From: a bacterium
Lineage (GTDB): Bacteria; Zhuqueibacterota; Zhuqueibacteria; Residuimicrobiales; Krinioviventaceae
Reading direction: 5' to 3'
Length of the DNA stretch: 64,000 nt
NCBI GenBank assembly: GCA_029561455.1
Contig: JAKQIY010000041.1
Span: 186,001 to 250,000, forward strand
How positions within the stretch are numbered: position 1 is the stretch's first letter; each line of letters begins with the position of its first letter. The notes beneath the pieces are model-generated. The model worked only from the letters and a program-made list of their open reading frames with translations, was not told where the DNA came from and did not search any database. The position numbers and the translations under genes were made by a program. This document shows, one piece after another, positions 26,951 to 29,675 of the stretch.

Positions 26951-28084
26951 ATGCAGGATTTTGGTCTCAATAACAACATTCGGGTCGGCGCCAAATTATT
27001 ACATGTGCAGACCAGTTTTTCGTACACTACCGGTTTGATCGCTACGAGCGTTTTTGAAGGGGGAAAGCTTTTACAACTGCGCGAGTATAGCCTGCCGCAG
27101 AACCTGGTGAACGAGCGCTATGAAAATGAAGTCAAGTCATTTCACAATGATGTGATCTCGGACCTGGAATTTACCTGGTTGATCAGTAAAAAGCTGGACC
27201 GGGTCGATAACATTGCCGCGCGAAAAAAGCTGGGCATGTTTTTTTTGAACAAGGGGATGTATGAAGATGCGCGGGCGCAGTTTTTATTTATCCGCAAACA
27301 GAGCGATGATAAACAGCCCTGTAACTATGAACTGGGCATGATATGCTACCATACCCAGGATTATGAGCAGGCCCTGGAATTTTTAAAAAATGCCATTATT
27401 GATTTTCCCCGTTATGCAGATGTTCACCTGCTGCTGGCTAAAACCTATTTCGAACAGAAAGAATACAAGTTTGCAGTCAACCATTTACGGAACGCTATCA
27501 ATATCAATAGCCGTTACCACGAAGCATATTTTACCTATGCCCTGGTATTGCTGCAAAGTGTGATCGATGCACCCAATTATTCACGGCTGAATAAACCGCA
27601 GGAACGCCTGCATGAAGCGCTGGATTATCTGAACCAGGCACTCAGTTTATCGCCGGAATATGACAAGCAGATCGTTGAAGATGTGTTGATAACATTCAAT
27701 CAGCCCGACAAGCTGCCTGACGCGGTGCAACGTCTGCGCCAGGAACTGGATCGGGTACTCAAAAGCCGCAAAAAAAATATTGACGATAACGAGTTTTACC
27801 TCAAATTTATGTTTGCCGGTCTGGATAAAGATCCCGAAGCCATGGATTTGCTGATCATGAAAATTGAAAGAGAGCTGATCGCACATCCGGACTGGGCTGA
27901 CCTGCATTACAACCTGGGTAAGGTATACCTGGCAAAGGCCTGGTATACGCTGGCAAAAACCACCGAAGCCTTCCAGGAGGCATTGAACCGCAATCCCCGT
28001 TTTGAAATCGCCAAAACCACCGCCGACCAATTGACCGTCGCCGGTAAAGACTTGACAGCGCTGCTGAAAAAGATCCTGGAATAA
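26951..28084 (+). CDS. Cytoplasmic tetratricopeptide-repeat protein
   Basis: A 377-aa protein without a signal peptide. The first 80 residues (VQTSFSYTTGLIATSVFEGG, KLLQLREYSLPQ) form a small beta-rich head of unknown type. TPR units follow: GMYEDARAQFLFIRKQS, QDYEQALEFLKNAIIDFP, KEYKFAVNHLRNAININ and a late one near 325-355. FCB genomes often carry such proteins but I cannot assign a partner. It is the last gene before the 1.5-kb non-coding island. Confidence 0.72.
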   Translation: MQDFGLNNNIRVGAKLLHVQTSFSYTTGLIATSVFEGGKLLQLREYSLPQNLVNERYENEVKSFHNDVISDLEFTWLISKKLDRVDNIAARKKLGMFFLNKGMYEDARAQFLFIRKQSDDKQPCNYELGMICYHTQDYEQALEFLKNAIIDFPRYADVHLLLAKTYFEQKEYKFAVNHLRNAININSRYHEAYFTYALVLLQSVIDAPNYSRLNKPQERLHEALDYLNQALSLSPEYDKQIVEDVLITFNQPDKLPDAVQRLRQELDRVLKSRKKNIDDNEFYLKFMFAGLDKDPEAMDLLIMKIERELIAHPDWADLHYNLGKVYLAKAWYTLAKTTEAFQEALNRNPRFEIAKTTADQLTVAGKDLTALLKKILE

Positions 28085-28111
28085 GTTACCTGTTTTGTCA
28101 AGACCTGGAAC

Positions 28112-28132
28112 AAGGGGCCGCATGACCCCTTT
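28112..28132 (+). terminator. Weak hairpin terminator after the TPR gene
   Basis: AAGGGG and CCCCTT enclose an 8-nt loop starting 27 bp after the stop; only one or two extra T follow. Possible terminator at the left edge of the island. Confidence 0.35.
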
Positions 28133-28141
28133 AGATCGTGA

Positions 28142-28322
28142 GGCTGTATCAAAAGCCTTTGTTGTTCGGGTTTTACAGGAAATGTGCACCAGGGAAAGTG
28201 TTGCACACCTTTCCGCAAATTCCATAAAAACAAAGCCATATTCCAATGTATAGATTGAAAGATTTTAGCGAAAAATTTCGCAGGTGTACTACACTTTCCC
28301 GATCATACCTTTTGATACAGCC
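28142..28322. mobile_element. MITE-like element with 14-bp perfect terminal inverted repeats
   Basis: GGCTGTATCAAAAG at 28142-28155 is repeated as its exact reverse complement at 28309-28322. Inside, GGGAAAGTG at 28192 onward (18 bp to 28209) is mirrored at 28283-28300 with two mismatches, and GCGAAA-AA-TTTCGC forms a hairpin at 28268-28281. It has no coding capacity and I see no target-site duplication. Termini of the GGCTGT-TCAAAA type occur on some insertion sequences, so a non-autonomous derivative is plausible; this is inference. Confidence 0.65.
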
Positions 28323-28434
28323 CCACGGAAAAAAGACCGAGGCTGTGCCCCTGTAATAAAAATCAAAGGTAAAGCCCTTCCGGATTCATTTACCTGAGTA
28401 CAACCTCGGCGCCATCTCTGCCAATTAATACAGT

Positions 28435-28540
28435 CGATGGGGGCTTGCCCGGTCTCTGCTTTATGCTGATCTTATGACTGTAACAAATTCTGTTTAATAT
28501 AAAAGATACTTTATTAGCGCCGGGCAAGACCCCATCCTAC
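28435..28540 (+). mobile_element. MITE-like element B, copy 1
   Basis: A 106-bp segment whose ends form an imperfect terminal inverted repeat: GATGGGGGCTTGCCCGG at the left, and GATGGGGTCTTGCCCGG read inward on the other strand at the right, with one mismatch in 17. The reverse complement of 63838-63945 matches along its whole length, nearly perfectly at both ends and roughly three quarters overall by eye. No open frame inside. Confidence 0.7.
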
Positions 28541-28550
28541 CAATAATTTG

Positions 28551-28660
28551 CAAAACAGGGTTTCGTATCCAATTTCCGCTCCAAACCGGAGTTTGGAGCG
28601 GAAAAGCCTGGGCTCCCGGACAGCCTGACATCCCCAGGACGAGCAGGGAGGCCCCGGGGC
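28551..28660. repeat. Island repeat module A, copy 1
   Basis: A 110-bp module repeated 490 bp downstream at 29041-29150 with about 11 mismatches. It contains the perfect hairpin CCGCTCCAAAC-CGGA-GTTTGGAGCGG (28576-28601) and the 15-mer CCCCAGGACGAGCAG, which occurs a third time at 29023-29037. Confidence 0.85.
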
Positions 28661-29055
28661 GAGGGGAGGTCATTGCCATGACATTTATGTCGTGGTTAAA
28701 TAAAATAAAGAATAATGACTTTAGTCAAATCTGTCAATGAGGCTAAAGCCATTTAATAATTATATTTATCCACGATCTAAAGATCGTGGCAATGATCTTT
28801 ATAGATATTATTTGAGAGGCCCGAGCCTGGCCCCGGCGCGATCTGAGTTGTGCCCAACCGGCCTGATCGACGACCGGTGCGTACCAGCTCGGAGCGGGGA
28901 TGCTCCCCGCTTCGCACACTAGTACAGGACATACTGTCCAGCCGGGCCGCAGGCCCGGTTTGTGTGCATGAATTTTTATGCGGGACGGGATGTCCCGCTT
29001 TATTTGGCGTCCTGGGGAACATCCCCAGGACGAGCAGATTCGAAACAGAGTTTCG
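28576..29055. repeat. Array of short, mutually different perfect hairpins
   Basis: Perfect inverted repeats with loops of 2-5 nt lie at 28576-28601 (11-bp stem), 28669-28682, 28680-28691, 28716-28727, 28741-28750, 28770-28789 (9 bp), 28893-28911 (8 bp), 28927-28939, 28942-28958 (7 bp), 28980-28998 (7 bp), 29008-29032 (11 bp) and 29041-29055 (6 bp). Stem sequences differ from one to the next while geometry is shared. This is not a CRISPR: there is no common repeat and no regular spacer. Confidence 0.85.
28831..28882. repeat. Island repeat module B, copy 1
   Basis: 52 bp beginning CCCCGGCGCGATCTGAG, repeated at 29142-29193 with one mismatch. In copy 1 it is separated from module A by about 170 bp of small hairpins; in copy 2 the modules are joined. 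Confidence 0.85.
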
Positions 29056-29193
29056 TATCCAACTACCGCTCCAAACCGGAGTTTTGCGCGGAAAAGCCTA
29101 AGCTCCCGGGCATCCTGACATCCCCAGGACGAGCAGGGAGGCCCCGGCGCGATCTGAGTTGTGCCCGACCGGCCTGATCGACGACCGGTGCGT
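29041..29193. repeat. Island repeat modules A and B, copy 2, fused
   Basis: Module A copy 2 (29041-29150) runs directly into module B copy 2 (29142-29193), sharing the CCCCGGCGC joint. The right arm of the big module-A hairpin is altered in this copy, so the stem at 29066-29091 is imperfect, whereas CGAAAC-AGA-GTTTCG at 29041-29055 is perfect here and degraded in copy 1. Confidence 0.85.
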
Positions 29194-29619: not shown

Positions 29620-29675
29620 CTTTAAACCTTAAAGTAATGGTTTAAGCAACTTTTGTTATGAGGATTAAAATTATC

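Follow-up and report, generated by a model that had tools for sequence, protein, structure and literature searches.

Hairpins of an intergenic island in a Zhuqueibacterota genome as probable miniature elements of single-strand (HUH/Y1) transposases

Closest described systems

The subject of this work is an island of hairpins (28551-29193) in the window, that is, the whole 64,000-nucleotide stretch that was analysed (contig JAKQIY010000041.1, positions 186,001 to 250,000, phylum Zhuqueibacterota), and above all a four-hairpin element of a 127-bp type which it contains. The closest described counterparts are the IS200/IS605 insertion sequences, the paired repetitive extragenic palindromes (REPs) called REPINs with their REP-associated tyrosine transposases (RAYTs), subclass 1.2 of the Y1 transposases (TnpA-Y1), and a palindrome of Caldithrix abyssi. 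In IS200/IS605 both end hairpins are read on the same strand and the ends are not mirror images of each other. Palindrome-ended derivatives of this family have been described, such as palindrome-associated transposable elements (PATEs) and miniature inverted-repeat transposable elements (MITEs) (PMC7290912).

Quentin et al. (2018) characterised TnpA-Y1 subclass 1.2 by the motifs Y---Q--HH, WQ and DH[IV]H and by a low gene copy number (PMC6006769). It is tabulated there as "REP: no", and the automatic REP search of that study demanded a GTAG or GTGG foot. REP insertions are described in the same paper for subclass 2.4. A REP transposase of Marinomonas requires T12, T13 and A15 of the loop TTTA and accepts all four bases at position 14; replacing the entire stem affects it moderately, a mismatch in the stem seriously (PMC8266576). 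The 18-nt palindrome of C. abyssi is intergenic, strand-biased and unexplained, with GA or TC at its centre and, more rarely, AA or TT; it was described without an enzyme and as not part of a larger repeat (PMC5317091).

The island consists of several element families stacked on one another, not of one array of a dozen like hairpins. With good confidence, it can be read as a mosaic of miniature elements that gathered in a single intergenic gap, mostly hairpin-ended and of the kind moved by HUH/Y1 single-strand transposases, in which the 127-bp block would be an empty, non-autonomous frame. That a REP-type or single-strand transposase made the hairpin array was among the explanations offered in the initial annotation of this DNA, and the data agree with it: one block matches the empty frame of an IS200-class Y1 enzyme, the repeat family of 28434-28550 lies beside a RAYT gene, and similar arrays occur elsewhere in the genome.

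The 127-bp element

The element and its hairpins are located as follows.

28670-28795, + strand: four-hairpin element of the 127-bp type (TCATTG ... CAATGA), with dispersed matches and a copy with tnpA inside
28676-28695, + strand: left outer hairpin CCATGACATTTATGTCGTGG, 9-bp stem with one T-G pair, centre TTTA
28716-28727, + strand: left inner hairpin TGACTTTAGTCA, centre TTTA
28741-28750, + strand: right inner hairpin GGCTAAAGCC, centre TAAA
28770-28789, + strand: right outer hairpin CCACGATCTAAAGATCGTGG, 9-bp stem, centre TAAA

The order is thus TCATTG, a 20-nt hairpin (9-bp stem, 2-nt loop), two inner hairpins, a second 20-nt hairpin and CAATGA. A covariance model built from 23 copies gives at least 138 matches in the 5.85-Mb genome. 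Many places match on both strands because the element is nearly its own reverse complement; after merging, at least 71 places are left, and at least 55 reach 100 bits or more. The place counts are lower bounds, since 150 of 3562 candidates were scored. Two of the places are the halves of a copy that carries a gene.

In 49 aligned copies, the left centres are TTTA or TTCA, the right centres TGAA or TAAA, and the feet are mirrored; the TCATTG foot is present in 41. The initial annotation had suggested a search for compensatory changes in related strains; changes of this kind are seen in both outer stems among the copies inside this genome. Pair 6 of the left stem is T-A in 39 of the 49 copies and A-T in 10, and pair 7 of the right stem is C-G in 33 and T-A in 11. 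The alignment of 23 copies contains 19 cells that are changed on both sides of the stem. Shuffling gives 6.9 such cells and in none of 500 trials as many as observed, and sliding the partners gives 0-2, but these changes are not independent events because the copies are interrelated. The subfamily to which the window's copy belongs has sharp ends.

Copies also lie within a few hundred bases of the ends of contigs C2, C4, C8, C18, C23, C44, C45, C50, C55, C62 and C74, which suggests that these repeats broke the assembly there.

The transposase gene inside one copy

One copy in the genome of the window (G000, contig C78) is opened, between the inner hairpins, by a Y1 transposase gene. The full frame is TCATTG, outer hairpin, inner hairpin, tnpA, the mirrored inner and outer hairpins, and CAATGA. 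The likely start of the gene is the ATG of MPYVRIW, which lies 3' of the left inner hairpin and at which the conservation of the relatives begins; the right inner hairpin starts at the base that directly adjoins the stop codon. Two ordinary frame copies are found just upstream of the gene (L016, positions 2750 and 2915). The gene is the only one of its kind in the genome, against the 71 or more places of the frame.

The C78 protein scores 97.8 bits against PF01797. It passes the IS200/IS605 model NF033573 (71.9 bits, cut-off 55) and fails the REP_Tyr_transpos model (28 bits, cut-off 80). Its nearest relatives of solved structure are transposases, including 2xm3/2xma, the structures of ISDra2 TnpA, and the IS608 enzyme 2a6m. 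Its motifs are YINKQKDHH, which fits the pattern Y---Q--HH found in 10 of the 10 proteins of alignment A1, EWQ, and the HuH motif DHCH, whose middle residue is C; several relatives have DHIH or DHVH at this position.

Relatives of the transposase and their flanking hairpins

A scan of named genomes yielded 11 relatives, in Bacteroidota and Ignavibacteriota, and a profile search gave 68 matches in 40 of the 82 genomes of the window's phylum. In total 79 loci were placed, 69 of which have the full Y---Q--HH motif. They were split post hoc, once the flanks had been examined, at a profile score of 125. The upper group has 26 loci, 24 of them with enough flank to be evaluated. Hairpins with a stem of at least 8 bp and a 2-nt loop, up to 250 nt upstream or 150 nt downstream of the gene, occur at 20 of these 24 loci and on both sides at 13, whereas shuffled flanks give at most 1 and 0, respectively. 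Control flanks at least 900 nt away have such a hairpin in 1 case out of 17.

The centres of these hairpins are constant: all 53 are TTTA, TTCA, TAAA or TGAA (T-TY-A or its complement), and with wider flanks 58 of 58 follow the same rule. The stems are not: of the 35 hairpins that lie closest to a gene, 33 are distinct in sequence. The foot is TTG in 19 and TAG in 14 of the 58. It had been noted from the window that geometry is conserved and sequence is not; for the 127-bp element this proves true across bacteria. Model R1, which describes the window's own version of the frame, finds a match in one of the 24 relatives searched (G016). A frame version taken from Salinimicrobium has 19 and 17 matches in two genomes of that genus, in many cases near the gene itself, and none in the three other genomes of the same search.

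A tree built from 74 of the 79 proteins places the C78 TnpA in a group of 18 rows, and 2-nt hairpins are present in 14 of them. Among the four others, L093, L094 and L121 have T-TY-A hairpins with perfect stems of 5-7 bp. The lower group has hairpins with 3-4-nt loops at 26 of 49 loci, compared to a maximum of 6 in shuffles. At five of the more distant Y---Q loci (L086, L135, L147, L155 and L179), hairpins of 7 bp with 4-nt loops are located by the gene, namely GTCCCTAACGGGAC and variants with compensated outer pairs.

Comparison with the described systems

Like REPINs and their RAYTs (REPtrons), the 127-bp element combines an inverted pair of hairpins, many intergenic copies and a single-copy Y1 gene among the repeats. 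It differs from them in the low score of its TnpA against the RAYT model, in its foot, which is TCATTG (TTG or TAG in relatives) instead of GTAG or GTGG, and in a frame of four hairpins with the gene inside. It shares with IS200/IS605 a TnpA above the family cut-off and a gene within a frame that has hairpins near both ends, and the frame copies without a gene recall the PATEs and MITEs derived from this family (PMC7290912). Unlike in IS200/IS605, the ends are mirror images, the stems vary around a constant centre, and one gene copy was found for the 71 or more frame places instead of several near-identical gene-bearing copies.

By its Y---Q--HH and WQ motifs, the C78 TnpA is assigned to TnpA-Y1 subclass 1.2, as a putative member, and the single gene in the genome agrees with the low copy number given for this subclass (PMC6006769). 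The published picture, with no REPs or terminal hairpins, does not hold here, as the gene of G000 lies in a hairpin frame and hairpins accompany 20 of the 24 evaluable loci of the upper group. We read this as amending the description of the subclass for one of its clades; membership is not thereby lost. The GTAG or GTGG foot that the REP search of that study demanded is mostly missing from these hairpins.

The T-TY-A centre follows the same pattern as the loop rule T-T-N-A of the Marinomonas enzyme (PMC8266576). The C. abyssi palindrome is intergenic too, and its centres GA, TC, AA and TT obey the T-TY-A rule; it differs in having been described without an enzyme and outside any larger repeat (PMC5317091). 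Its 16-base core occurs 103 times (forward counts summed) in 17 of the 82 genomes of the window's phylum, in a search that did not include C. abyssi itself, and 72 of the 75 core places listed, counted by eye, have one of the four centres. In L125, L144 and L145 the exact core flanks a Y---Q--HH gene on both sides, and in L126 on one side, at a distance of no more than 200 bp; it is absent from L142, L143 and L123. At the genome level, the co-occurrence of the AACCGTT palindrome with subclass 1.2 genes is not significant (P = 0.058) and is not relied on. No link of subclass 1.2 or of the Caldithrix palindrome to such a frame was found in the literature searched, the coverage of which was thin for subscription papers.

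Taken further, these comparisons make us lean towards the view that a clade of subclass 1.2 runs a REPIN-like system which reads the centre of the loop (T-TY-A) and the shape of the hairpin, and not the stem, so that lineages drift to stems of their own. This would account for the mixed hairpin arrays in Bacteroidota, Ignavibacteriota and the window's phylum, and the strand-biased palindrome of C. abyssi would be one of its targets.

Other parts of the island

For most of 28137-29193, related copies are scattered over the genome. Apart from the 127-bp element, the following parts can be distinguished, none with an assigned strand.

28137-28327: dispersed element, present at ten more places in the genome, whose terminal inverted repeats of 19 nt are 95% complementary
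28434-28550: REPIN-like element with inverted ends GATGGGGGCTTGCCCGG / CCGGGCAAGACCCCATC(CTAC); its repeat family adjoins the RAYT gene of L010
28553-28662: module A, copy 1, with a 14-bp hairpin at 28573-28604 and relatives at seven other loci
28829-29042: train of GC-rich hairpins (dyads 28893-28911, 28927-28939, 28942-28958, 28980-28998 and 29008-29032)
29043-29193: module A, copy 2, truncated, and the start of the GC-rich train, a tandem duplication

The first of these, of about 190 bp, has the look of a MITE that depends on another type of transposase. The REPIN-like element has six further places in the genome. The two copies of module A (28553-28662 and 29043-29152) are 91% identical; the 14-bp hairpin is intact and CAAAACAGGGTTTCG broken in copy 1, and the opposite is seen in copy 2, so that the initial annotation was right to describe arms altered at different hairpins. 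Besides its relatives at seven other loci, module A has a short match in L041. The GC-rich train has 43 matches in the genome, counting itself and 29140-29193.

All seven Y1 genes of the genome sit among palindromic repeats. The L010 protein is a RAYT (189.8 bits against REP_Tyr_transpos), and by the NCBIfam models, L010, L011, L013 and L014 pass the REP-transposase cut-off while L012 and L015 fail. When the flanks of the six Y1 genes other than that of C78 were compared with the island, a firm link was obtained solely between L010 and 28434-28550, where the CTAC/GTAG end and the matching palindromes by the REP_Tyr_transpos gene fit a RAYT/REPIN pair. Short matches were also observed: 28941-28957 resembles the GTAG palindromes by the RAYT of L011 (E 0.058), 28104-28118 the repeats by L012 (E 0.002) and 28832-28843 the repeats by L013 (E 0.22). 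Module A and the other GC-rich hairpins are likewise dispersed repeats; for the GC-rich hairpins, the connection to transposases is no more than partial.

Within the reading frame of the L015 Y1 gene (1459-2091) lie copies of the gene's own GTAGAGACAGGTC repeat, which resemble the REP insertions of subclass 2.4 (PMC6006769). Many hairpins with a common GATCG or GCTCG foot, and with widely different stems and loops, are present in L029, L031, L026 and L013; they may represent a second system whose stems drift, close to the RAYT of L013.

The number of hairpins in the island exceeds what shuffled sequence gives. Perfect dyads with a stem of at least 6 and a loop of 2-8 that do not overlap number 7 in 28551-29193, compared to a mean of 1.0 and a maximum of 5 in dinucleotide shuffles. 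In 28576-29055, with loops of 2-5, there are 17 dyads at a stem of at least 4 (shuffle mean 6.1, maximum 14), 10 at a stem of at least 5 (1.7 and 6) and 7 at a stem of at least 6 (0.45 and 3). None of the 300 shuffles reached the observed counts in either interval, and the dinucleotide control proposed at the outset is thereby passed; about one third of the dyads with a stem of at least 4 in 28576-29055 would be expected by chance. The initial annotation had counted at least twelve perfect inverted repeats with stems of 4-11 bp and loops of 2-5, all with different stems. The count stands at a stem of at least 4 and the stems do differ, but the longest one, that of 28573-28604, has 14 bp and not 11.

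The island is bounded by an open reading frame (ORF) of TPR type, which ends at 28084, and by the next long ORF, which starts at 29658. It was rightly called gene-free: the ORF list shows between them two ORFs of 81-83 aa, taken as spurious, and reverse-strand ORFs which extend from the TPR gene. On the 313-kb contig, no other island with at least 4 GC-rich dyads at a spacing below 150 bp was found. Similar hairpin stretches, for which that annotation had proposed to look, are present on many other contigs of the same genome.

Alternative explanations

Several observations weigh against a mosaic of elements moved by single-strand transposases. No clean empty site of the 127-bp element was found when the flanks of copies (50 pattern matches, restricted to copies flanked on both sides by 50 nt or more) were joined and compared with the retrieved loci of the same genome. 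The single spanning comparison, L032 with L031, has extra flanking DNA and is not clean, and the two module A copies of the window differ by about 179 bp, not 127. The commoner ACGTCAT subfamily shares its flanks too, so that tandem duplication, or spread as part of larger units, may account for many of the copies. In one element the ends are inverted and not in the IS200-like arrangement, and most GC-rich hairpins are not tied to any enzyme among the six other Y1 genes whose flanks were compared. Among the relatives, the split into two groups is post hoc, 4 of the 24 upper-group loci have no such perfect hairpin, and the lower group departs from the 2-nt rule (11 of 49). Lastly, the relative in which the gap was compared, G001, is of the same genus but distant (its TPR protein is 53% identical). 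The gap itself speaks for the mosaic: in G001 the orthologous interval measures 352 bp (in L109, where the TPR ORF stops at 1854 and the following one starts at 2207) against 1573 bp here, its right-hand part aligns patchily and the following ORF begins alike. Hairpin arrays are absent from this interval, so that the island must have been acquired in one lineage or have disappeared from the other, at a time that the distance of G001 leaves open.

The hairpins could instead be host sites, such as terminators, mRNA stabilisers or sites for gyrase or IHF, kept by host selection, their spread being secondary. Their intergenic placement fits this idea, and such roles of REPs have been reported in other bacteria (as cited in PMC5317091). 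It is nevertheless improbable, given a transposase gene inside one frame copy, a model R1 that matches nothing in 23 of the 24 relatives searched, and a gap without the island in G001.

That the C78 TnpA landed by chance in a copy of an unrelated repeat, on which it does not act, is very improbable. The single gene-bearing copy of this genome fits such an accident, but the genes of relatives in other bacteria are flanked by the same geometry and centre with other stems, at 20 of 24 loci and on both sides at 13.

A structured non-coding RNA, or several, kept for their fold, was proposed in the initial annotation and is hardly credible. The island does fold strongly (z-scores of -7.5 as DNA, -6.9 as RNA of the plus strand and -9.7 as RNA of the minus strand, with 20 shuffles each) and its stems show compensatory changes. 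This candidate was rejected because both strands fold similarly, as palindromic DNA must, and no Rfam family matches in the island; moreover, the pieces are scattered independently of one another, in either orientation, and the orthologous gap of G001 lacks the island. As for a recombination platform, also suggested at the start, there is no positive evidence for it.

Proposed mechanism

For the transposase-driven mosaic, the following steps may be envisaged. The DNA would become single-stranded, for example as the lagging-strand template, and one strand would be preferred. TnpA would then bind the hairpins through the T-TY-A centre and an intact duplex stem, the foot that adjoins the stem would help to select the cut, and the enzyme would cut and rejoin the strand in trans and so move the frame. 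If the paired letters of the stem matter little, the stems could drift by compensatory changes. The frame with the gene in it, its copy number, the covariation of the stems, the constant centre and the occurrence in other phyla are observations; binding, cutting, movement and the preference for a strand are inferred.

Significance

A transposase subclass which is tabulated without REPs (PMC6006769) would gain a concrete and testable DNA target, and the unexplained strand-biased palindrome of C. abyssi a candidate enzyme. REP searches based on a GT[AG]G foot, as in that study, would miss such systems. As the shape of the hairpin and the centre of its loop are kept while the stem is rewritten, recognition based on structure can be tested with few oligonucleotides. 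For this group of transposases, which had no reported DNA target, a likely one is thus indicated.
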